A DNA stretch of 64,000 bases from assembly GCA_937923325.1 (NCBI GenBank), contig CAKZUQ010000038.1, forward strand, positions 1 through 64,000, given 5' to 3'. How positions within the stretch are numbered: the stretch's first letter is position 1; every line of letters starts with the position of its first letter. The notes beneath the pieces are model-generated. The model was not told the DNA's origin. It saw nothing but the letters and a program-made list of their open reading frames with translations, and made no database searches. Position numbers and translations under genes: made by a program. Shown here piece by piece: positions 1,381 to 34,952 of the stretch. This DNA is from an uncultured Bacteriovoracaceae bacterium (GTDB taxonomy: Bacteria > Bdellovibrionota > Bacteriovoracia > Bacteriovoracales > Bacteriovoracaceae).

Positions 1381-3036
1381 TTACATGTTTAAGTTAACGC
1401 CAGCAGGCTTAACTATAGTTAATAAATTCTGAAATGCTTGAGTTACTTGTAAAGCCATTTTATGTCCAGCTTTAGAGTCTACTCTTTTGATTTCACCATA
1501 GTTGTCATAAACAACATTAATTTTTCCAACCTTTGCCATAGCGATCTCAACAGGCTTACCAGAAGCATTATATTGAAATGACAAAATTCTTCTTTTTTTC
1601 GTTTTTACATTATTATCAACCATTTTAGTAATTTTACCTTTTCTGTCATAAACAAGTAAAACTGCTTGATTCGTTGAGTTTAAAGCTTTTACTAAATTAC
1701 CTTTCTTATCGTAGTTAAATTTAGTCCATCCCTTGTTATTTTTAACTTCAGAGATTTTGTTTACCTTCTTATCATACTTAATATAAACGAAATCACCCTT
1801 TGTTGAAGTTTTTTTCACTAACTGCCCGTTATCATTATAATCGAAAGCAGTTACATGTTTTCCTCTAGCGATTTTAAGTGGCAATCCACAACATTCAGAA
1901 TAAATTGTTTCAGTCTTAATGTTATTAATCTCAGTTAAAATTCTATAAGTATACCTTGCACCATCTGGCTTAGTCTTAATTTCATATTCATACCTATTTG
2001 TTACAGGCTCTCCGCTAAATCCTTTCTTTGATACAGAAGTCCAGTAGTGATCATTTGGTTTTTTAGGATCTGAACCATATTTGTAAGAAATAGCATCTCC
2101 ATTTCTATCTGTAATTTTAGAGATAAAAAATGTTTTTGGCTCATAATCCATTTTCATAGCATCTTCAGCAACACCCTTTTTTCTTGAAGGATTATAAACA
2201 ATTTTTGATAAGTTATGACTTCTATCGTAATTAAACTCATATTCATTACCTGCCAAATCTTTAGAGTAAACTAAATCTTTACCTTTATATTTAAATGTTG
2301 CTTTTTTATCACCAACAGACCATAGCTCTTTTATAAATCCATTTGAATACCAGCTAAAAAAGATTTGTTTTGCTTGAGAGTCTTTAATAGAAAATAATTT
2401 ATTCTTTTTATATTTGAATTCAGTAGTATAACCATTTTTTAGTTTTATTTTTGTAAGATTACCTTTTTTATCAAAATATTCTTTCTTCCCATCATTTGAA
2501 AATCTCAAATAACCAGACTTTGTAACCTTTACTCTTTGAATACCTCTTTGGTTTGAGAATAACTCAGATCCATCAGCAATTTTGGTAGAAATATTAAAAT
2601 TCTTTGCATATGCATGACGAAGGTCTGCATTTTTAACTAATCTTTTCATTAATAATTTTGCAGCATTTTCAGTAAGAGGTGATTTACTTTGGCTCCTCAT
2701 TGCTGAAATTATTTTTTCAGAAGCTGCAACTGGATCAACTTTACTTTTAGGACAGAATCTTGTCTTACCACCAGCTCCATGTTCATGAACAACAACACAC
2801 CCATCAGGACTAGTTGCTAAATTTGTTTCATATAGGTTTCCCCACCCAAAACCAAACCATCCAACACTTGTAGACTTAGAGTTATAAGTTCTAGTCATTT
2901 CTAACTTTTTTCCACCACCTGGAACAACGATATCAGTATAGGAAATATAAAAATTTCCGTTTTTCAGGTTAACACCAGCGTTAACATTCATCACCATAGC
3001 AATAGTTAAAAATATAATTAATTTAATACTCTTCAT
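1381..3036 (-). CDS. Secreted YD-repeat (RHS-like) protein
   Basis: A 551-residue protein. It has a signal peptide (residues 1-20, ending NVNA), then an N-terminal RHS-type domain (about 21-105: NGNFYISYTD, TRTYNSKS, GWFGFGWGNLYE) like the DUF6531 module that opens many RHS proteins. A long series of degenerate YD-type repeats follows to the end (motifs such as YDKKGNL, YDNYGE, YNDNGQL). It lacks a conserved C-terminal core and a variable toxin tip, and is far shorter than polymorphic-toxin RHS proteins. A surface or periplasmic structural role therefore seems likelier than a toxin, but this is inference. It lies directly downstream of the Tad operon with its own sigma-28-like promoter, and precedes the small secreted protein. 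Confidence 0.8.
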   Translation of the reverse strand: MKSIKLIIFLTIAMVMNVNAGVNLKNGNFYISYTDIVVPGGGKKLEMTRTYNSKSTSVGWFGFGWGNLYETNLATSPDGCVVVHEHGAGGKTRFCPKSKVDPVAASEKIISAMRSQSKSPLTENAAKLLMKRLVKNADLRHAYAKNFNISTKIADGSELFSNQRGIQRVKVTKSGYLRFSNDGKKEYFDKKGNLTKIKLKNGYTTEFKYKKNKLFSIKDSQAKQIFFSWYSNGFIKELWSVGDKKATFKYKGKDLVYSKDLAGNEYEFNYDRSHNLSKIVYNPSRKKGVAEDAMKMDYEPKTFFISKITDRNGDAISYKYGSDPKKPNDHYWTSVSKKGFSGEPVTNRYEYEIKTKPDGARYTYRILTEINNIKTETIYSECCGLPLKIARGKHVTAFDYNDNGQLVKKTSTKGDFVYIKYDKKVNKISEVKNNKGWTKFNYDKKGNLVKALNSTNQAVLLVYDRKGKITKMVDNNVKTKKRRILSFQYNASGKPVEIAMAKVGKINVVYDNYGEIKRVDSKAGHKMALQVTQAFQNLLTIVKPAGVNLNM

Positions 3037-3081: not shown

Positions 3082-3108
3082 TTATCGGTTAATTTGATTT
3101 AAATCTTA
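3082..3108 (-). promoter_or_regulatory. Sigma-28 (FliA)-like promoter before the YD-repeat gene
   Basis: The minus strand reads TAAGATTT, an 11-base spacer, then ACCGATAA. Against the enterobacterial FliA consensus TAAAGTTT-N11-GCCGATAA this is 6 of 8 and 7 of 8, with exact spacing. Transcription would start near 3075, about 40 bases before the ATG at 3036. The -35 element overlaps the end of the preceding tad gene. Confidence 0.55.
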
Positions 3109-4061
3109 ACTTTAATTATCTTAAAAATTAAAAAAATACCGATTCCATCTAAGACACAAGCGACAATAAACATTATAATTCCAACAGGATGACCAAACAT
3201 TTTACCAAGAAGAGTAGGATCGGATGCAGAAAAAACTCCTAATAATCCAAAAGGCATACACCCGATGATTAGTCCTTGAAACTTTCCTTGAGCAGTCATA
3301 GTTTCAATTTTTTGAAGTAAAGCAACTCGTTCCCTAATAACTTCACAAATGGTGTCAAATACTTCTGCTAAATTACCACCTGTCTCTCGTAAGATATTAA
3401 CAGAAGAAACAAACATTTGATTATCTTCAGTTGGAACTCTTTGAACTAAGTTTTCAAAAGCCTCCTCCAATGGAACTCCAATTTTTGTTTGTTGTAATAT
3501 TGTATTGAACTCTTGATTTATTGGAGCTGGAAGTTCATCTACAACCATACCAATTGACTGTGGTACGGATAGTCCCGCTCTAAGTCCATTTGATAGTAAT
3601 TGAAGGGCATCTGTCATTTGATAGCTATACTTTTGAATTCTGTTTTTCACCATTATATCCACAAGTGTTCTTGGTATTTTCCACCCAACTATACTTAAAA
3701 TTATTCCTAAAAATAATCCTAAGCCAATTTTTCCAAGAAGAGCACAAATACCGATCACGATAATAGAGACTCCTAAGCTTAAGAATACCAAAACGTAGGT
3801 AATTCGATTTGGTTCAACTTCAATGTGTAAAAGTTCAAATTTTGTTAATATATAATCTCGAGTACCAAATGTTTGATCTTCGATCCAAGCAAATAATTTA
3901 ATTGAATTTTTATAGGTATATAAAAAGAAGATGAGTCCAACGGTTAATGCTGTACCTGTTTTGCCAAGAACATCATTTAGGAAGCTAAAGCTTTCTGTCT
4001 TTTGGGCATAAGCACTAACAGAAGTCAGTAACAAATATATTAACATTAAAATCTTAGGCAT
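3099..4061 (-). CDS. tadB: Tad pilus inner-membrane platform protein (TadB/TadC type, GspF domain)
   Basis: Integral membrane platform protein of the type II secretion F family, on which the Tad pilus ATPase acts. The T2SSF domain covers about residues 145-270, with the characteristic sequence around GLRAGLSVPQSI and ETGGNLAEVF. Hydrophobic segments flank it: two near residues 80-130 and two near the C-terminus. The ATG at 4061 is preferred over a longer reading frame because the longer form would run far into the motor gene. From 4061 the overlap is 8 bases and an AGAGG site lies upstream. Typical Tad loci encode TadB and TadC as a pair; only one is seen here. The TadB or TadC assignment is not certain. 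Confidence 0.85.
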   Translation of the reverse strand: MPKILMLIYLLLTSVSAYAQKTESFSFLNDVLGKTGTALTVGLIFFLYTYKNSIKLFAWIEDQTFGTRDYILTKFELLHIEVEPNRITYVLVFLSLGVSIIVIGICALLGKIGLGLFLGIILSIVGWKIPRTLVDIMVKNRIQKYSYQMTDALQLLSNGLRAGLSVPQSIGMVVDELPAPINQEFNTILQQTKIGVPLEEAFENLVQRVPTEDNQMFVSSVNILRETGGNLAEVFDTICEVIRERVALLQKIETMTAQGKFQGLIIGCMPFGLLGVFSASDPTLLGKMFGHPVGIIMFIVACVLDGIGIFLIFKIIKVKI

Positions 4062-6150
4062 TGGTAAACAAACCTCTTGGTACTTTGTAGCCTTTTCGCT
4101 CCAAAGACTCAATGAACTTTGGAATAAATCCAGTGGCCATAAACTTACCAATAATTTTTCCTTGCTTACTCATTCCCTCTTGCTTATATGCAAATATATC
4201 TTGGAGGGTTATAACATCTCCTTGCATCCCACCTATTTCAGTAATATTCATAACTTTTCTTGAACCATCTTCAAGCCTTGATTGTTGAACAACCATATGA
4301 ACAGCAGATGCTATCATCTCTCTAATCGCACGAGGAGAAATTGGGACACCAGAATACTGTACAAGTGTTTCAAGTCTAGACATACAATCTCTTGGAGTGT
4401 TTGAATGGACAGTAGTCATAGAACCATCATGGCCTGTATTCATGGCCTGAAGCATATCTAAAGTTTCACCACCACGACATTCTCCAACAACAATTCTATC
4501 TGGTTTCATCCTAAGAGTTTGTTTTACAAGACATCTAATATCTACGGCCCCATCTCCTTCAAGTGAAGGTGGTTTCGTCTCTAGTCGAACAACATGATCT
4601 TGTGGAAAATCTAGTTCAGCTGAGTCTTCACAAGTAATTATTCTTTCATTAGAAGGTATAAATCCTCCCAACATATTAATTAGTGTTGTTTTACCTGAAC
4701 CTGTACCTCCAGAAACAACTATATTTCTATGAGCTTCAACAGAGATTCTTAAAAAGTCCGCCATAGCTTCCGTCATTGAACCAAAGTTAACTAGATCTTT
4801 ATATGTTAATCTATTTTCTGGAAATTTTCTTATCGTTATAGTTCCACCATCAAGTGCACAAGGCGGAATGATTGCATGTACTCTTGATCCATCAGCAAGT
4901 CTTGCATCAACATATGGAGTCTTCTCATCAATTCTCCTTCCGATAGGAGCAACAATTCTTTCAATGACGTTTAGAACTTGCCTGTCATTAGTAAATGTAA
5001 CTTCAGATTTTTTATTTTTTCCACTTTGTTCATAATAAATTTTATCTGGTCCAACAACCATAATTTCAGAGATAGTCTTATCAGAAAGCATATCCTCTAA
5101 TGGACCTAATCCTAAAGCTTCATCTAAGATTTGCTTCACGATATTATTCATATCTTCACGCGTATTAAGAATACCTTTAGTATCTTCTTTTCCAATTAAT
5201 TCGACTACCAACTTTTTTGTTTTTTCTCTTAAAATTATTTGAGCTTTTGGATCACTATCATCTTGTTTCTTTAAATCCATTTCCTCAACAAGAGATTTGT
5301 GAATTCTAGTTTTTAGATTTGTCCAAGGGTCCTTTCCTGGTCTAGCTGAACTCGAGGTAGTTTTTTTTATTTGAATATTTTCAGGTTTTTTTAATTTCTC
5401 TAAAACTTTTAATATATTCTTTTGCTTTAAAGTTCTAACAACTCCAGTAACTCCTTGAGAGAAAGGAGAACTTTTCGCAATTGCCATTACTGGACTTGAT
5501 GAACTAAGTGCTCTCATACAACTTTGATCATCCTTAGGTATCAATCCAAAAACGGGCTTTCCTATTTGTTTTCCAATTATGTCAGCTGTAACAGGGTGGC
5601 CTTTTTGAAACTGATTTAAAACAATTTGAATCATATCTTTTGGAAAGAGTTGAGTTATTAACTCGGAATATAATCTCTTTGATTGATTAGCTGCTAGAAG
5701 ATCTGGAGTTACAACAATAAAAATTAACGTTGAAAACTCTAAAGCTTTTAAAGCAAGTGGACTAAGCTCAGAGCCACCATCTACAATAGTTAATGGATAC
5801 AGATTTGTCATCGCTTTTAAAGACTTACCAAGACCTTCAACATCAATTTGCTCAGCTGCAATCGGATCATTTGGCATACCAATATAATGAACACCTAATT
5901 TATGTTGCCCAATAAATAAGTTAATTGATCTTGGATCTAAAGCTCCAGAGTACTCTGACAAGTCTTTAATATTTTTCTTAGACTTAATACCTGTTATGAT
6001 ATTTTGATCTCCACAGGCTCTATCATCAAAATCTAACAAAAGAGTCTTTTGCCTATTTTCAGCAGCAAAAGCGAAAGCTAAGTTTGCTGCAACTTGAGAC
6101 TTACCAACTCCGCCCTTTCCACCAATTAATGTTATAATATGTCCGGCCAT
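4054..6150 (-). CDS. Fused CpaE/TadZ-like ATPase and CpaF/TadA motor ATPase
   Basis: A 698-residue protein of two normally separate Tad components. Residues 1-245 form a MinD/CpaE-like ATPase with the deviant Walker A motif GGKGGVGKS at 10-18; the response-regulator-like N-terminus of classical CpaE is absent. After a linker rich in Ser and Lys, residues about 275-690 form a CpaF/TadA secretion ATPase: GPLEDMLSD and SEIMVVGPD in the N-terminal domain, Walker A GGTGSGKTT, an Asp/Glu-box region, Walker B around RIVVGE, and the TVHSN motif. It would place the assembly site at the membrane and power pilin polymerisation from one polypeptide. The start overlaps the cpaC stop (TAATG), so translation is coupled. 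The reading frame is continuous, with no sign of frameshift. Confidence 0.9.
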   Translation of the reverse strand: MAGHIITLIGGKGGVGKSQVAANLAFAFAAENRQKTLLLDFDDRACGDQNIITGIKSKKNIKDLSEYSGALDPRSINLFIGQHKLGVHYIGMPNDPIAAEQIDVEGLGKSLKAMTNLYPLTIVDGGSELSPLALKALEFSTLIFIVVTPDLLAANQSKRLYSELITQLFPKDMIQIVLNQFQKGHPVTADIIGKQIGKPVFGLIPKDDQSCMRALSSSSPVMAIAKSSPFSQGVTGVVRTLKQKNILKVLEKLKKPENIQIKKTTSSSARPGKDPWTNLKTRIHKSLVEEMDLKKQDDSDPKAQIILREKTKKLVVELIGKEDTKGILNTREDMNNIVKQILDEALGLGPLEDMLSDKTISEIMVVGPDKIYYEQSGKNKKSEVTFTNDRQVLNVIERIVAPIGRRIDEKTPYVDARLADGSRVHAIIPPCALDGGTITIRKFPENRLTYKDLVNFGSMTEAMADFLRISVEAHRNIVVSGGTGSGKTTLINMLGGFIPSNERIITCEDSAELDFPQDHVVRLETKPPSLEGDGAVDIRCLVKQTLRMKPDRIVVGECRGGETLDMLQAMNTGHDGSMTTVHSNTPRDCMSRLETLVQYSGVPISPRAIREMIASAVHMVVQQSRLEDGSRKVMNITEIGGMQGDVITLQDIFAYKQEGMSKQGKIIGKFMATGFIPKFIESLERKGYKVPRGLFTNA

Positions 6151-7658
6151 TATCTTTGCCTCTTTCTAAATTTCTTTCTAATTTTTTCAGTACCAGCTGA
6201 AGCTGATTCAATAATTTCAGGAGTTACAAAAACAACAAATTGAGTCTTTGATGTTGAGTAAGATTTACTCCTAAGTAAGTCAAATAAAGGACTTGTATCT
6301 TCACTTGACGCTGCTTCATCCCCTCCGCCAGGTCTGTCTTTATCATAATCTGTACTTGAAGTACTTTGAACAACTCCACCAATTGCAGCAGATTCTTTAG
6401 ACTTAACTGTAACTTCAGTACTTATAGAGTTACTTACACTAGTAGCTGTACCATCAGCAGTGTCAGCACCAGGAAGAGATACAGTTATTTTCAATTGCTT
6501 CAATTCAACATTTTCATTGGCCCCAATAGACGGAGTCGCAGAAAAGTCAAACGTCACATCTGCACTAGCCGCCTGTGTAAAATCACCACTTCCTACCGAT
6601 GTTGGAATACTATTATTCTTTACAATAGATCCAGTTGCACTTTCTTTAACAATAAACATCCCAGATTGAAGAACCCTTGCATAACCGGCTGACTTACCAG
6701 CAGATAGTTTTGGAAACAGATTTGAAATTGTTCCAGCTAGAGTATTGCTCTCACTAGTTCCAATCTCTCCTGAGTCAGTTTGTCCAAATGATAAGTTTCC
6801 ATTAGTACTAATACCTGGAGTCCATGAAAAACCAAATGCCTTTTGATAATTTTTAGTTAGCTCTACAAACTGAGCAGTTACTTTTATTAACTTTGATGGC
6901 GGTGGTGGATCTTTTTGTTCATTTACAGATATAAAATTCCGTATTTGATTTTTTGTTCTACCTGTAAAACCACTCCCACCACTTTGTACGGCCAAACTAC
7001 TTAAACTATCAGGCTTATATTGCTCAGCAACACTAAAAGCAAGTGTTTTTTTAGACTCTCCATTTACAACACCTTCAAGCCAAAAGTCTCCGTTAACAAT
7101 TCGAACTGTAACATCAGGCATATTATTTTTATTAATTTCTTCTTGCATTTTTCTAGCAATATATCTTTGTGCTTGGCTTGAAAGTTCAATTAACTTTAGA
7201 ACGTCAGGATAATTTGCTAAAACAGTATTAATCTTACCAATAACACCAGGAACAACAATCTCTCCTTCCACAACAACCTTTCCACCCTTGATTCCAATTT
7301 CAAGGCCTTCGACGTTACCAATTAATTCTCTTAACTCTCTTACTGTATTTGAAGAACCATCACTGGTCACAGTAACAATAAATATATCCTTTACTTCTCC
7401 AGTTGTGTCTCTAACAGTAACAGATGTCTTACCTTGTTTCACTCCTCTGAAAATGATTTCTTGCTTAGCTGGTGTTAAAAGAAGCTTAATTATGCTTTGA
7501 TTACCTATTTGAATTTTTGTACTATATTTATATTCAAGCCTTTTCATAACATCAATACCAATAGCAACTTCTAAATCAGTTTTTAAAGCCTCTTCAGTAC
7601 TTTGAGAAAAAGAGTAATTTATACTTAAGATGAGTGTTAATAAGAATACTATTTTCAA
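6150..7658 (-). CDS. cpaC: Tad pilus outer-membrane secretin (CpaC/RcpA)
   Basis: A 502-residue secretin forming the outer-membrane gate of the Tad pilus. It has a signal peptide (1-18), then the N-terminal pilus-secretin domain (about 30-100, with GKTSVTVRD). A BON-like domain (about 105-230) follows, including VEGEIVVPG and the repeat-like VNGDFWLEGVVNG. The C-terminal secretin domain (about 255-490) ends with FVVFVTPEII. The order after cpaB and before the motor gene is classic for cpa/tad loci. The C-terminal tail is basic (KKFRKRQR), which is unusual for the end of a secretin and might act beyond the last strand. The start is 10 bases after cpaB. Confidence 0.92.
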   Translation of the reverse strand: MKIVFLLTLILSINYSFSQSTEEALKTDLEVAIGIDVMKRLEYKYSTKIQIGNQSIIKLLLTPAKQEIIFRGVKQGKTSVTVRDTTGEVKDIFIVTVTSDGSSNTVRELRELIGNVEGLEIGIKGGKVVVEGEIVVPGVIGKINTVLANYPDVLKLIELSSQAQRYIARKMQEEINKNNMPDVTVRIVNGDFWLEGVVNGESKKTLAFSVAEQYKPDSLSSLAVQSGGSGFTGRTKNQIRNFISVNEQKDPPPPSKLIKVTAQFVELTKNYQKAFGFSWTPGISTNGNLSFGQTDSGEIGTSESNTLAGTISNLFPKLSAGKSAGYARVLQSGMFIVKESATGSIVKNNSIPTSVGSGDFTQAASADVTFDFSATPSIGANENVELKQLKITVSLPGADTADGTATSVSNSISTEVTVKSKESAAIGGVVQSTSSTDYDKDRPGGGDEAASSEDTSPLFDLLRSKSYSTSKTQFVVFVTPEIIESASAGTEKIRKKFRKRQR

Positions 7659-7668
7659 AAACTAAATC

Positions 7669-8472
7669 CTATTTCTTTTTGTTTTGTATACTAAAATATG
7701 CTTTCGCTTCTTGAGCATCTTCGCCCATGATGTCATATAGTTTTGTACTATTTATCCTCTCAATAGCTTTATCGTCATTATTTCTTAAAGAAACATGAAT
7801 ACCAGCATCTGTTTTAATTAAGAAAATCATTTTTTGAACTTGAAATGGAGTTAATTCTAAAGTGATAGTATTAAATCTTGTATAGTTTGTAAGGTTAAGA
7901 GATTTTACTTTTTTTTCGACTTGCATACCAACCAGAGGAAGTTCTTTTGTAACGTTTAATCCAGTTGCAAGTACATAAACATCTTGCAAAACTGTTTTAA
8001 CTTTCATTTTATCTTTTTTACCATTGGCATAGTCCACTAAAGTTAGAATATCAACTCTATCACCTGGCTTAATTAGCTTACTTACTAATTCTTCATCATT
8101 TAATCTTACAGAAAGAGCTCTTTTCCCGATACTAACTTGCCTTGAAAGACCAGTCCTTGAACCAGGATAGGTAATTCTTGGCTTTGTTATCTGTTCTCCA
8201 CTTTTTATAGGAACACTTGCAATTGTATTGTAAACTAGTTCTTCTTTATTAAACGCTCCTGGCATTTTATATTTAGAAGGAACAGTGACAACATGCACCT
8301 TAGTATCATCTATAAGATCTAATTCTTTAATATCTGTTTTTGCGACAACAACTGGAACCATATCACCATATGCTTCTTTAAACTTTGCTTCTTTACCATC
8401 AATATATGAACTAACCATAAAAACAGCTATTCCAGCAATTATAAGACTTAAGGTAAATGCTCTACTATTCAT
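7669..8472 (-). CDS. cpaB: Tad pilus assembly protein CpaB/RcpC
   Basis: A 267-residue periplasmic protein with one N-terminal membrane anchor (residues 7-24). It contains a SAF/CpaB domain (about 40-105, VVVAKTDIKELDLI and SGEQITKPRI), then the RcpC/CpaB domain (about 105-235, including ALSVRLNDEE and PGDRVDIL). Family members are thought to link secretin and inner-membrane parts of the Tad apparatus. It is followed closely by cpaC. The 71-base gap upstream (8473-8543) contains a tandem ACGATATAA sequence that could include an internal promoter, but no convincing -35 element. Confidence 0.9.
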   Translation of the reverse strand: MNSRAFTLSLIIAGIAVFMVSSYIDGKEAKFKEAYGDMVPVVVAKTDIKELDLIDDTKVHVVTVPSKYKMPGAFNKEELVYNTIASVPIKSGEQITKPRITYPGSRTGLSRQVSIGKRALSVRLNDEELVSKLIKPGDRVDILTLVDYANGKKDKMKVKTVLQDVYVLATGLNVTKELPLVGMQVEKKVKSLNLTNYTRFNTITLELTPFQVQKMIFLIKTDAGIHVSLRNNDDKAIERINSTKLYDIMGEDAQEAKAYFSIQNKKK

Positions 8473-9598: not shown

Positions 9599-9863
9599 TT
9601 GTCCCGTTATATGATGGGTGGTTTGAATCTGTATAGTTTGGCGTTTCAAATGCTTTTCTTCCTTGATAAGAATTTGTATATGAGAATTCTATCTCATTTT
9701 TATACGTTGTAGCAAACTGTCCTTGATCTCCAAAAAAATTTTGGAATGCATCACTTTTTAAGACTGCAAATGTCAAAGAAACGACGACAACAAACAAAAG
9801 AAGATACTCAACACTAGATTGACCCTTTTGTACTAATATATAAATGTATCTTTTACTGTCCAT
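9546..9863 (-). CDS. Flp pilin-like protein with extended C-terminus
   Basis: About 105 residues. The leader ends in KGQSSVEYLLLF, matching the Flp/TadE processing site G-(x4)-E-Y, followed by a hydrophobic helix to about residue 37. Unlike the ~60-residue major Flp pilin it has a hydrophilic C-terminal extension of about 65 residues rich in Asn, Thr, Tyr and Ser. The ATG at 9863 lies inside the end of the peptidase gene (31-base overlap); an ATG further upstream is possible. It is probably a minor pilin or tip component. Confidence 0.75.
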   Translation of the reverse strand: MDSKRYIYILVQKGQSSVEYLLLFVVVVSLTFAVLKSDAFQNFFGDQGQFATTYKNEIEFSYTNSYQGRKAFETPNYTDSNHPSYNGTNGSETRFFGAAEEYPSQ

Positions 9864-10339
9864 CCTATCCATATCCATGCAAGTAATATTACAGGAGCAA
9901 AAGCGAATTTAGATCCAAAGCAAGACCTTACACCATTAGCATCTCCTGTTTTTAATGATAATTTAAGCTTATCGAAATTCTTTACAACATTTGTCATAAG
10001 AGTAAAAAGACCGACTAATACAGTACTGATTAATAAGTATTCAAATGTCTGTTCTTGAATATATAATGGAACTATTAAAAAAAAAGTAAAAAGAAACTTA
10101 GAATCTCCTCCTCCCATAATTCGAAGAAGAAACAATACAAAGCCAACAAGTAAAAATACTCCACTATAGATAAAGGTATCTAACTTAAAGAAATAGTAAG
10201 TTGGACTTACATAAATAAGAATTAAGAAAATAATTAGATTTAAAATAGACCAGGCATTAACAATTTTATTTGTCCTTACATCAGCGATTGCTACAAATAT
10301 AAGTTCAATAAGGATGAATAAGTAAATCGGTAAAGGCAT
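9833..10339 (-). CDS. cpaA: Tad prepilin peptidase (TadV/CpaA type)
   Basis: A 168-residue polytopic membrane aspartic protease of the A24 family without the N-terminal methylase half, as usual for TadV/CpaA. The catalytic aspartates are visible in IADVRTNKI (residue 20) and in the GxGD-type motif MGGGDSK (about residue 94). It would process the three Flp-like pilins and the TadE-like proteins encoded around it. It is translationally coupled to the upstream pilin-like gene (TAATG). The distant pilD (55029-55808) is a separate full-length enzyme for type IV pilins. Confidence 0.9.
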   Translation of the reverse strand: MPLPIYLFILIELIFVAIADVRTNKIVNAWSILNLIIFLILIYVSPTYYFFKLDTFIYSGVFLLVGFVLFLLRIMGGGDSKFLFTFFLIVPLYIQEQTFEYLLISTVLVGLFTLMTNVVKNFDKLKLSLKTGDANGVRSCFGSKFAFAPVILLAWIWIGWTVKDTFIY

Positions 10340-10560
10340 TAGTTTTCCCTGCCATTTTCATATCCAGCAAAAAAACAATTATTAGAACATACACCTGTCA
10401 TAAGATGTATTGTTAGAATATGCCCTAAGCTTCCCATTGAACTTTGAAAGAAGCCTCTAAAGCCCGTAATAATTTTGAATGAAACTATAACAGCAAATCC
10501 GAGTATTAATAAATACTCTATCATTGCTTGTCCAGCAGATTTATACTTTGAACTATGCAT
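10339..10560 (-). CDS. Flp-like pilin, second copy
   Basis: A 73-residue protein with the Flp processing and assembly motif SAGQAMIEYLLIL at about residues 8-20 and a hydrophobic helix after it. The C-terminus carries a CxxxC pair (VCSNNC) that the first pilin lacks. It lies 61 bases after the first pilin gene, separated by a small hairpin, and overlaps the peptidase gene by one base. Confidence 0.85.
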   Translation of the reverse strand: MHSSKYKSAGQAMIEYLLILGFAVIVSFKIITGFRGFFQSSMGSLGHILTIHLMTGVCSNNCFFAGYENGREN

Positions 10561-10621: not shown

Positions 10622-10807
10622 CTATTCGAAGCTATTTAATGCGCCATTTGCTTTTCCAAAAACACTACTGACCATATTATCCAGCTCTTCTCTAAGTTTT
10701 CCACCGAATTTAATAACAATCAAAGCAACCATTGCAACTAACAAGATATACTCAGTAGATGTTTGACCGCTTTCATCTTTTAAAAATTCTACGACTTTGC
10801 CCTTCAT
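10622..10807 (-). CDS. flp: Major Flp-type pilin of the Tad locus
   Basis: A 61-residue pilin precursor. A 14-residue basic/acidic leader ends at ESG, then QTSTEYILLVAMVALIVI gives the G-(x4)-EY motif and the hydrophobic assembly helix, followed by a short amphipathic tail. Size, motif and its place first in the operon identify it as the probable main subunit. An AAGGAG site precedes the ATG. A sigma-28-type promoter lies about 32-58 bases upstream. Confidence 0.92.
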   Translation of the reverse strand: MKGKVVEFLKDESGQTSTEYILLVAMVALIVIKFGGKLREELDNMVSSVFGKANGALNSFE

Positions 10808-10838
10808 AAATTCTCCTTATACTTGGACTACTTATTTC

Positions 10839-10865
10839 TTATCGGGCCTCTTCCAAGAAACTTAA
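10839..10865 (-). promoter_or_regulatory. Sigma-28 (FliA) promoter of the Tad pilus operon
   Basis: The minus strand reads TTAAGTTT, an 11-base spacer, then CCCGATAA. Each element matches 7 of 8 positions of the FliA consensus TAAAGTTT-N11-GCCGATAA, with ideal spacing. The predicted start near 10832 gives a leader of about 25 bases carrying AAGGAG. Another promoter candidate lies just upstream. Confidence 0.75.
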
Positions 10866-10878
10866 GTCCTTTTTTATA

Positions 10879-10887
10879 ATTATATCA
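10879..10887 (-). promoter_or_regulatory. Extended -10 promoter upstream of the Tad pilin
   Basis: The minus strand carries TGATATAAT, an extended -10 element (TGn plus perfect TATAAT) for the housekeeping sigma factor. No good -35 hexamer is seen. It could supply basal transcription of the Tad operon alongside the FliA-type promoter. Confidence 0.45.
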
Positions 10888-11008: not shown

Positions 11009-11014
11009 AGACTT

Positions 11015-11195
11015 GGGTCTAGAGAAACATGAGTTTCGCCCTACAATGATTTTTTTCGGGAGCTGTCCCTGATCGTGGTGAGCAAGCTGAAAAACCTCTT
11101 TGAATAAGGAAGTTTAATCAGAAGCCTAAAGCGATTACTTATAGTGCCCACCTTGTTATGAGGGGCGCGAAACTACAGATTATCTCTAGACCCCC
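11015..11195 (+). ncRNA. ssrS: 6S RNA
   Basis: About 180 nt with the 6S architecture. The terminal closing stem pairs 11015-11025 (GGGTCTAGAGA) with 11183-11193, a perfect 11 bp. A second helix pairs 11032-11038 (AGTTTCG) with 11168-11174, and CCCT at 11039-11042 can pair with AGGG at 11161-11164 across a small bulge. A large open region and a GGTGAGCAAGCTG segment follow, similar to the conserved GGTGAGCATGCT stretch of enterobacterial 6S. 6S RNA mimics open promoter DNA and sequesters sigma-70 RNA polymerase in stationary phase. The strong promoter fixes the 5' end. The usual neighbour of ssrS in gammaproteobacteria (ygfA) is absent. Identification is from structure and motif by eye; a covariance-model search would be decisive. 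Confidence 0.88.
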
Positions 11196-11215
11196 TTTCT
11201 AAGTCATTCCTTGAC

Positions 11216-11776
11216 ATGTCATATAAAACCCTTGATCATTTTTATATGGAACAAAATATAGAGCATACAAATTTTTCTAGTACTTGGATTGAAAACCTGG
11301 CCCTTGATGAAATAAACATGGAAGAGTCAGGGATTATTAATTTTAATGAACACCTGAATCCAAATAAGTTATTGGAAGAATCTTCTATTGAATTCATGGA
11401 AAGATTAAAAGAAATTTTTGAAATTGCGCTCACAAAGTTTAATCAGTTTAGAGCAAGCTCTGATTCTTCGAAGATAATTAAGATTTTTAAAATATCAAAT
11501 ACAGTAAATGACTTTATGCTCTATAGAAACTCACTTAAATTAGTTGTAGCTCGAAGAAGTCATGACGTTATTTCATTGGGCTTTCTTTCTAATTCAGGTG
11601 GACTATTCTCAGCTAGAATGAATTTTGAAGAATCCTCTAAAAGTAAGATTCATGAAATAAAAGCTCACGTAGGTGCTTTTAACGAGATTACTTGGCGCTT
11701 CCAAGGTGAAGAAATTAAATTAGAGGCCTTGGTAAAACACTATTTAACAGAGTTTATTAAGCACTCATCTAAATAA
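11216..11776 (+). CDS. Protein of unknown function next to 6S RNA
   Basis: A 186-residue protein with no signal peptide or membrane helix. It is acidic in the first half, with a likely helical segment around 55-75 and a beta-rich second half (KLVVARRSHDVISLGFLS, then GGLFSARMNF). I recognise no family. The ATG lies only about 20 bases after the 6S 3' end and there is no obvious separate promoter, so it may be expressed by read-through from 6S. Its 3' end overlaps the convergent SDR gene by 8 bases. Confidence 0.7.
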   Translation: MSYKTLDHFYMEQNIEHTNFSSTWIENLALDEINMEESGIINFNEHLNPNKLLEESSIEFMERLKEIFEIALTKFNQFRASSDSSKIIKIFKISNTVNDFMLYRNSLKLVVARRSHDVISLGFLSNSGGLFSARMNFEESSKSKIHEIKAHVGAFNEITWRFQGEEIKLEALVKHYLTEFIKHSSK

Positions 11777-12806: not shown

Positions 12807-13640
12807 CTAACTTAAAAGTTTCAGTGCAAAGTTAGGCGCTTGATTCGCCTGTGCTAATACGCTAGTTCCAGCTTGATTCAAGATCTGGTTCTTGGCCATA
12901 TCAGCGGTTTCTGAAGCTACATCAACATCTCTAATTCGGCTATTGGCCTGACTAAAGTTCTCTTCAGTAACCCCAAGTGTTTGGATAACTGATGTGAGCC
13001 TGTTTTGTAATGCTCCAAGTTCAGCTCTACTTCCATTGATTTGCACGAGGGCATCATCAAGTTTTGATAGAGATAGTTGTGCGGACTCTTTAGAAGATAC
13101 TGCTTCACCAGATAAGCCAAGGCTATCGAGTGTTGATGAAATTTTTGAAGCATCGTACTTAATTCTATCGTTAAAAGCATCATTGTGGATTCCCACTTGA
13201 ACTTCAACAATTCCACCTGTTCCATCAAGAAGTTTCCTTCCATTAAAATCAGATGACTGTGCGATTCTTTGCATTTCATCTTTAAGCTGCTGGAATTCCA
13301 AATCGGTAAATCCACGCTCTGTATCTCCGACAGTGTCTGACGCTGCTTGGATAGCAAGTTCTCTAAGTCTGATAACGATATTGGAGACTTCTGAGAGTCC
13401 ACCTTCTGCTGTTTGTATAAGCGAGATACCATCATCTGCATTCCTTCTTGCTTGTCTTAAGCCTCGGATTTGAGCTTTTAGCTTTTCACTAATTGCCAAT
13501 CCTGCTGCGTCATCAGCTGATCGAGTTATTCTCTCACCGCTAGATAACTTTCTAAAGTTACTATTTAATCTATTATTTGTTTTACCAAGCATTCTTTGAG
13601 CAGCAATACTTGATACATTTGTATTTATTCTTAATCCCAT
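12807..13640 (-). CDS. Flagellin, downstream copy
   Basis: A 277-residue flagellin made almost only of the conserved D0/D1 ends: MGLRINTNVSSIAAQRMLGK at the start, and NSRIRDVDVASETADMAKNQ with AGTSVLAQANQAPNFALKLL at the end. There is hardly any variable D2/D3 region, as is common for short flagellins. It is about as long as, and clearly related to, the 281-residue flagellin upstream. It has its own Shine-Dalgarno (GGAG) and, unusually, is preceded one base after the stop by a 7-codon leader ORF with an even stronger Shine-Dalgarno. A strong terminator follows. I see no sigma-28 promoter in the 209-base gap, so it may rely partly on read-through from the upstream flagellin. Confidence 0.95.
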   Translation of the reverse strand: MGLRINTNVSSIAAQRMLGKTNNRLNSNFRKLSSGERITRSADDAAGLAISEKLKAQIRGLRQARRNADDGISLIQTAEGGLSEVSNIVIRLRELAIQAASDTVGDTERGFTDLEFQQLKDEMQRIAQSSDFNGRKLLDGTGGIVEVQVGIHNDAFNDRIKYDASKISSTLDSLGLSGEAVSSKESAQLSLSKLDDALVQINGSRAELGALQNRLTSVIQTLGVTEENFSQANSRIRDVDVASETADMAKNQILNQAGTSVLAQANQAPNFALKLLS

Positions 13641-13849: not shown

Positions 13850-14695
13850 TTAACTCGCTGCCTGTTGAATTAATGTCAATGCACTTGTTGTCGATTGGTT
13901 CGCTTGAGCTAACACTGACGTTCCCGCTTGCATTAAAATATTATTTTTTGTTAATTCGGCAGTTGCTGATGCGATATCAGTATCTCTAACTCTTGAGTTA
14001 GCTGCACTTAGATTTTCAACACTAATTTGTAGGTTGTTAATTGTTGACTGAAGTCTGTTTTGAAGAGCACCAAAGTCAGCTCTAATACCAGATACAGAAA
14101 CTATAGCTGAATCGATAGAAGAAAGAGAATTTTGTGCAGAAATCTTATCAGATACACTAGCAAGATTTAGACCTAAAGCTGCAACATTAACATCTGCGCT
14201 TGAAGCATCAAAGGTTAATCTATCACTTAAAGGATCATTTCTTGTTCCGATTTGAATATCAAAAACAGCTCCCGTTCCGTTTAAAAGAGGTACTCTGTTA
14301 AATTCCGTTGAATTAGATATTCTATCCATTTCAGCAGTTAGTTGCTCGAATTCAACATTAAGAAACTTTCTTTCTGTTGCTCCGATTGTATCAGAAGCCG
14401 CTTGTACAGCAAGCTCTCTAAGCCTAATTAATATATTTGATGTTTCAGATAAACCACCTTCAGCGATTTGAACTAAAGAGATACCGTCTTGAGCATTTCT
14501 TTCAGCTTGACCTAAACCTCTAATTTGAGCTTTTAAGTTCTCAGAGATTGCTAAACCAGCAGCGTCATCCCCTGCTCTGTTAATTCTTTGTCCTGAAGAT
14601 AATTGTTCTAATGTCTTCTGTTGTGCGACCCTAGTTGATGACAAATTTCTTTGTGCATTCAACGAAGATACATTCGTGTTGATTCTTAATCCCAT
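13850..14695 (-). CDS. Flagellin, upstream copy with sigma-28 promoter
   Basis: A 281-residue flagellin with complete N-terminal (MGLRINTNVSSLNAQRNLSS) and C-terminal (NSRVRDTDIASATAELTKNN, then AGTSVLAQANQ) D0/D1 regions and almost no variable middle. It is transcribed first of the pair from a near-consensus sigma-28 promoter. The ATG has a strong site (AAGGAGG, 6-base spacing). A hairpin displaying AGGA in its loop stands upstream, resembling a CsrA-controlled flagellin leader. No clear terminator separates it from the second flagellin. Multiple flagellins in one filament are usual in Bdellovibrio relatives. Confidence 0.96.
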   Translation of the reverse strand: MGLRINTNVSSLNAQRNLSSTRVAQQKTLEQLSSGQRINRAGDDAAGLAISENLKAQIRGLGQAERNAQDGISLVQIAEGGLSETSNILIRLRELAVQAASDTIGATERKFLNVEFEQLTAEMDRISNSTEFNRVPLLNGTGAVFDIQIGTRNDPLSDRLTFDASSADVNVAALGLNLASVSDKISAQNSLSSIDSAIVSVSGIRADFGALQNRLQSTINNLQISVENLSAANSRVRDTDIASATAELTKNNILMQAGTSVLAQANQSTTSALTLIQQAAS

Positions 14696-34289: not shown

Positions 34290-34901
34290 TCAAAACTTTG
34301 TTTTTCTAAGAATAAAAGGGATTAATGTTAACAAAGCAAAAAAGCTTAATATCCACCCTTCAGACAACTTACTTACCTCGACCTCTGTACCAAGATCTAC
34401 AGATGCAATTCTACGCGAATTTTGTTTTACAAGTTTAACTTGATCTCTTTCAAATTTAGTTATACTTCGAGTCGTTATCGTAAGGTCTAAGTTTTTCCTA
34501 ATATAATCTAATGTATTATTTAGACCAATTTGACCAACCATTGGTTTATCTGAATTATAATCCCTAATTATAAAATCATACTCTCCCATAGTCTTAATTT
34601 CATAAACTTGCCTTTCAGGGCTTGTAACTACAAACTGATCACTGTCTTTAACTTCATTTAGAGAAAATAAATATTTTTTAAACTTTATAAGTTCTTTTTG
34701 TGACTTCAATTTAATGAAATTTGTTTTTTTATGAGTCTTTGAAGCCCATTTATCTAGCTTGATCAGATATGTATCTTCATCTTTACTAACAACTTCGCCT
34801 AATACGATTAGCTTAGCATCTTTCAAATCTTTATTTATTGCTACAAGCTCAGCACTAAACATCGAGAAAGAAAAAACTAATAAAAACAAACACTTAAACA
34901 T
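34290..34901 (-). CDS. Single-pass envelope protein of unknown function under a sigma-28-type promoter
   Basis: 203 residues with a signal peptide (1-17) and a predicted periplasmic domain. A C-terminal membrane helix (about 182-197) is followed by a short basic end (RKTKF), giving a type I topology resembling tail-sorted surface proteins. The periplasmic part has many charged residues and a beta-rich pattern (YLIKLDKWASK, FVVTSPERQVYEIK, YDFIIRDYNS). No family is recognised. An almost perfect FliA promoter 25-51 bases upstream suggests it is expressed with the flagellar genes. Confidence 0.75.
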   Translation of the reverse strand: MFKCLFLLVFSFSMFSAELVAINKDLKDAKLIVLGEVVSKDEDTYLIKLDKWASKTHKKTNFIKLKSQKELIKFKKYLFSLNEVKDSDQFVVTSPERQVYEIKTMGEYDFIIRDYNSDKPMVGQIGLNNTLDYIRKNLDLTITTRSITKFERDQVKLVKQNSRRIASVDLGTEVEVSKLSEGWILSFFALLTLIPFILRKTKF

Positions 34902-34925: not shown

Positions 34926-34952
34926 TTATCGGTAGCCGACCAAAACACTTTA
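34926..34952 (-). promoter_or_regulatory. Sigma-28 (FliA) promoter of the orphan envelope gene
   Basis: The minus strand reads TAAAGTGT, an 11-base spacer, then ACCGATAA: 7 of 8 at each element with ideal spacing. The start would fall near 34918, about 17 bases before the ATG, with GAAGGGG as Shine-Dalgarno. Confidence 0.8.

Follow-up and report, generated by a model that had tools for sequence, protein, structure and literature searches.

The first Tad pilin gene, flp, of an uncultured Bacteriovoracaceae bacterium is preceded by a FliA (sigma28)-type site that is kept upstream of flp across the order. Our reading, to which we assign a probability of nearly nine in ten, is that this site is a working FliA promoter that would switch on the flagellins and the Tad operon (flp through the ATPase and membrane genes) together; the pilus would then be made in free-swimming cells. 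Order-wide conservation, along with reporter experiments on Bdellovibrio promoters (PMC5430801), gives good support to a FliA input to the operon, as predicted here. We infer that the site is used and that the pilus is timed with the swimming attack phase, and the coupling of Tad and FliA may have a predatory role in the source organism.

The window (the whole stretch of DNA that was analysed, 64,000 nucleotides long) carries the gene set of a Tad/Flp operon, with Flp pilin, TadV, RcpC, RcpA, TadZ, TadA and TadB/C in one cluster on the minus strand, including a single T2SSF gene and one ORF that contains both the TadZ-like and the TadA domain (Table 1). This single-ORF arrangement aligns over almost the full length with relatives in most of the genomes listed. 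The flp product matched Flp_Fap weakly in Pfam (28.1 bits, below the cut-off of 32.2), and the second pilin-like gene matched no Pfam family. A relative of the TadZ-TadA ORF at E<=1e-120 was found in 120 of the 129 genomes of the order. Among the matches listed, the nearest named relatives by this protein are MAGs assigned to Bacteriovoracaceae (L001 and L002), Oligoflexia (L003) and Proteobacteria (L030), at 75-81% in the best segment; the protein of genome G028 stands at 91%. The neighbourhood is also shared within the order, with same-strand flagellin matches 5' of flp in 66/76 full-length in-order loci and the divergent gene at most 2.5 kb from flp in 69/76; neither lies nearby at any of the five outside-order loci checked. 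A 6S RNA gene lies between the divergent gene and flp and reads away from flp. It was also matched in 10 of 12 scanned relatives, and its position is equal in the two that were compared (L081 and L087).

Table 1. Genes and promoter-like elements discussed in the text, with positions in the window.
Feature	Position	Strand	Remarks
RHS-repeat/DUF6531 gene	1381..3036	-	551 aa; cluster end
Second FliA-type site, TTAAGATT-N12-ACCGATAA	3082..3109	-	3 mismatches; begins 73 bp before RHS gene
T2SSF protein, TadB/TadC-type	3099..4151	-	
TadZ-TadA ORF	4054..6150	-	N-terminus MinD/ParA-type (TadZ-like), C-terminus TadA-type ATPase
RcpA-type secretin	6150..7658	-	
RcpC/CpaB	7669..8472	-	
Prepilin peptidase, TadV-like, Peptidase_A24	9833..10339	-	
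Second pilin-like gene	10339..10560	-	73 aa, GQAMIEY motif
flp, first Tad pilin gene	10622..10807	-	61 aa, GQTSTEY pilin motif
Putative FliA (sigma28)-type promoter of Tad operon, TTAAGTTT-N11-CCCGATAA	10839..10865	-	Pattern scan; kept in relatives
Extended -10 TGATATAAT, sigma70-type, in tandem with FliA site	10879..10887	-	TG before hexamer
6S RNA gene	11013-11196	+	Rfam RF00013, 60.3 bits
Divergent gene near flp	11216-11776		
Flagellin 2	12807..13640	-	Upstream of flp, same strand
Flagellin 1	13850..14695	-	Upstream of flp, same strand
FliA-type promoter of flagellin 1, TAAAGTTT-N11-GTCGATAA	14768..14794	-	One mismatch

Read on the minus strand, the flp site is TTAAGTTT-CTTGGAAGAGG-CCCGATAA and begins 58 bp 5' of the flp ATG; the predicted transcription start is about 25 bases before the ATG, near 10831-10833. 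The original prediction had described a FliA-type site at the proper distance from flp, resembling the flagellin promoter in the same window, and both points hold: the site agrees with the E. coli FliA consensus in 7/8 and 7/8 positions (2 mismatches in 16, spacer 11), and the site before flagellin 1 has the same N11 spacer. No comparable site was seen before flagellin 2, where the best candidate in the window has 7 mismatches.

Judged on the window sequence alone, the flp site would be only a suggestive FliA promoter. With up to three mismatches, the consensus has 4 matches in the window where 1.26 would be expected, a number that is reached in 5 of 100 shuffles, so that the excess is marginal. 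We also trained a sigma28 matrix on sites of relatives that included none from flp (43 flagellin and 29 RHS sites); it ranks the flp site 7th in the window, and three sites inside ORFs outscore it. On account of the marginal excess and the matrix rank, we dropped the notion that the sequence of the window proves the site, and the same two results are what favors a chance likeness in AT-rich DNA.

That the site exceeds chance is settled by its conservation in relatives, the comparison that had been proposed as a check. We fetched loci from 114 of the 120 genomes of the order that have the TadZ-TadA gene (the remaining ones, G058, G089, G101, G102, G106 and G113, are mostly without upstream sequence) and 6 from outside the order, which with the window gave 121 oriented stretches. 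Eighteen were left out, 8 because the contig ends before flp and 10 in which flp was not found or was inverted (L166, L178, L182-L186 and L196-L198, inspected separately), and the 103 loci scored comprise the window, 99 in-order and 3 outside-order loci. A site with at most 3 mismatches was found upstream of flp in 62/99 in-order loci, and a site placed at -90 to -45 with at most 5 mismatches in 90/99. Within 250 bp of flp, 64/103 loci have a site with at most 3 mismatches, as compared to 9/2060 shuffles. Grouped by the similarity of their upstream DNA, the 103 loci amount to 64-82 clusters; when upstream regions with at least 75% similarity over at least 100 bases were merged, the first member had at most 3 mismatches in 48/80 clusters, and merging at three lengths gave 35/64, 48/80 and 49/82. 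With the flp-free matrix, 70/102 flp upstream regions of relatives score at least as high as the window site, and the rest of those loci contain 66 matches in 2.40 million strand-bases, flagellin sites included. Across 94 aligned flp sites the TNAAG and CGA bases carry about 1.8-2 bits each, and most positions of the upstream DNA 0.02-0.3 bits, a few of them reaching 0.7. This contrast is partly circular, since resemblance to the consensus was how the sites were chosen; a fair test is provided by the shuffles and the control genes. Placement in most in-order loci, rarity in shuffles and the weak conservation of the flanking DNA leave a chance likeness with practically no credence.

The conservation has its limits among individual loci. 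Of the loci inspected, four with flp (L162, L167, L172 and L179) show no site with up to 6 mismatches in the preceding 130 bases, and weaker sites were seen at L168 and L193 (6 mismatches only) and at L088 and L178 (5 mismatches). In L182-L186 the first-type pilin was not found, and the remaining pilins have no preceding site with up to 4 mismatches. At L166, flp (about 5074-5256) is inverted relative to the rest of the Tad cluster, and a FliA-type site with 3 mismatches precedes it by about 84 bp on the strand of flp itself. In loci from outside the order, the site before the first pilin has 2 mismatches in L200, 3 in L198, 5 in L195, L197 and L199, and 6 in L196.

The same scan, applied to neighbouring genes, retrieved sites with at most 3 mismatches before flp in 63/102 loci versus 18/74 for flagellin 1; the pilin site is therefore closer to the consensus more often than the flagellin site. 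No such site was found before flagellin 2 (0/75), RmlD (0/84), the divergent gene (0/93) or six other Tad genes (0 of 99-103 each), and the second pilin and RcpC each gave two (2/99 and 2/103), so that nine of the eleven genes other than flp and flagellin 1 never have one. The antisense strand upstream of flp has a site of this quality in 1/103 loci.

An extended -10 at 10879-10887 had been named as a possible start element competing with the FliA site, and TGATATAAT, with TG before the hexamer, is indeed present there. A sigma70 scan of the 700-base stretch around it yielded 6 sites versus 3.2 (sd 1.9) in shuffles. Among relatives, 69/94 loci have a sense TATAAT no more than 75 bp to the 5' side of the FliA site, as compared to a mean of 9.4 and a maximum of 19 in 200 letter shuffles, which preserve composition only; the antisense hexamer ATTATA appears in that region in 6/94 loci. 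TGNTATAAT is found in the same region in 31/94 loci (letter-shuffle mean 0.7, maximum 5). These counts favor the alternative that the Tad operon is transcribed mainly from the sigma70-type element, with the FliA site in a minor role. We consider this rather unlikely, since conservation extends to the FliA site, which keeps a tighter distance to the gene, and two conserved promoters argue that both are used; moreover, the Bdellovibrio locus L200 has the FliA site but no TATAAT in the 70 bp upstream that were examined. With a TATAAT preceding the FliA site in so many loci, control of the operon is probably dual, with the conserved sigma70-type promoter adding a second, FliA-independent input. 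The proposal that FliA drives the Tad operon is supported for the input, but FliA is probably not its sole driver.

Relatives of the source organism encode the corresponding sigma factor: a FliA-family protein scores over the curated cut-off in 117/125 genomes of the order, which is the count to use, as the looser level of E<=1e-30 (122/125) also matches 9/14 control genomes, 3 of them over the cut-off. Besides the main FliA match of about 270 bits, many genomes of the order (that of G003) have another among the matches listed, either at about 212-236 bits, over the cut-off, or at about 175-185 bits, below it.

The spacers of the pilin and flagellin sites differ. Scanning for spacers 10-13 with at most 4 mismatches, and ignoring kinship in the counts, we found flp sites with spacer 12 in 64 loci, 11 in 20 and 13 in 1 (of 103), and flagellin 1 sites with spacer 11 in 40, 12 in 4 and 13 in 1 (of 77). 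The 40 loci with both sites divide, as (flp, flagellin 1) spacers, into 28 with (12,11), 8 with (11,11), 2 with (12,12) and one each with (11,12) and (12,13). The window is an exception to the prevailing pair, having spacer 11 at both genes. A second sigma28-like factor, distinct from the flagellar FliA, could read the flp site and would account for the 12 versus 11 spacers, and many genomes of the order do have at least two FliA-family matches at E<=1e-30. Against it, of 13 paired genomes with a single match at this level, 9 still combine flp spacer 12 with flagellin spacer 11, which suggests that a single factor is able to read both (a second one that is more distant would escape this count); the equal spacers of the window, and a published Bdellovibrio FliA consensus that is itself of the 12 type (PMC3627812), point the same way. 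In light of the sigma-factor and spacer counts a second reader of the flp site is not needed, and we hold it to be distinctly improbable.

The coupling itself was taken at the outset to be unusual, and here the literature says otherwise: it has been in print since 2017. Using reporters in E. coli, Avidan et al. (PMC5430801) found the flp1 promoters of B. bacteriovorus and B. exovorus to be responsive to the FliA of these species, and from promoter analysis they suggest that FliA also controls the Tad flp genes of other predators; in addition, FliA has been presented as the key regulator for the majority of Bdellovibrio attack-phase genes (PMC3627812). Our search for literature on Bacteriovorax, FliA and flp together retrieved Avidan et al. 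only. The window operon is like the TAD operon of Bdellovibrio (flp1-flp2, bd0109-bd0119; PMC5430801) in the kind of operon, in the promoter before the first pilin gene, in sigma type and in sharing that sigma type with flagellins. It differs in having flagellin genes nearby, an upstream TATAAT and an RHS gene with a FliA site of its own, and in its prepilin peptidase, which according to that source is missing in Bdellovibrio and present in Bacteriovorax and Halobacteriovorax. Compared with the Bdellovibrio attack-phase consensus TTAAG-N16-CCGATA, found in 92/140 mapped promoters (Karunker et al. 2013, PMC3627812), the flp site of the window, known from its sequence, has TTAAG and CCGATA exactly and a spacing of N15 in place of N16. 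Next to the available text of these papers, the tandem TATAAT, the RHS FliA site and the spacer difference between Tad and flagellin promoters seem to be new refinements. With experiments in two Bdellovibrio species and conservation across the predators on the Bacteriovorax side, the place of the Tad pilus in the flagellar sigma regulon is probably old.

The second FliA-type site would feed the RHS gene at the cluster end. Of 40 loci sampled, each from a different one of the 120 genomes that carry the gene, 29 have a site with at most 3 mismatches before it, with spacer 12 in 27 of these 29, and the opposite strand gave 5 mismatches at best. None of seven outside-order or unplaced loci (L004-L008, L010 and L011) has such a site at up to 4 mismatches, with gene starts that were extrapolated and may be off. 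By position and domain only (the place and domain of bd0109 being taken from PMC3818213 and PMC4267844), the RHS gene is the counterpart of Bdellovibrio Bd0109, which belongs to the host-interaction locus; Bd0108-Bd0109 are described as attack-phase genes that are not FliA-regulated (Avidan et al. 2017, PMC5430801). A FliA promoter before the RHS gene would then be a difference between lineages, and comparing the Tad operon and the RHS gene between predator groups would show directly how each group wires its contact with prey. Since bd0109 is reported to be co-transcribed with bd0110 in Bdellovibrio, the Tad promoter may still reach bd0109 there.

In ten genomes, a strict FliA pattern gave 63 matches versus 12 for the reversed pattern, and 28 of the 30 matches made into loci are followed by an ORF no more than 200 bp away, in four cases flp and in three the RHS gene. 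Ten of the downstream proteins were compared with Pfam, yielding three sigma54 activators, one T2SSE ATPase, one DksA-type protein, one matrixin protease and four without a family. Because of these positions and families, the FliA network probably extends past flagella, as it does in Bdellovibrio. A tentative idea, to which we give limited credence, is that two classes of FliA promoters in the Bacteriovorax order (spacer 11 for flagellins, spacer 12 for the Tad pilin and the RHS gene) could time or scale contact-pilus and host-interaction genes apart from the filament, and that the tandem sigma70-type promoter could maintain the pilus while FliA is inactive. One further FliA-type site with 2 mismatches (34926-34952, minus strand) precedes ORF 34290-34901 in the window; this ORF has no Pfam family, and its protein is not significantly similar (E 0.64) to the protein encoded at L224, one of the loci taken from relatives around strict FliA sites. 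The proteins encoded at L224 and at L206, another of these loci, are alike.
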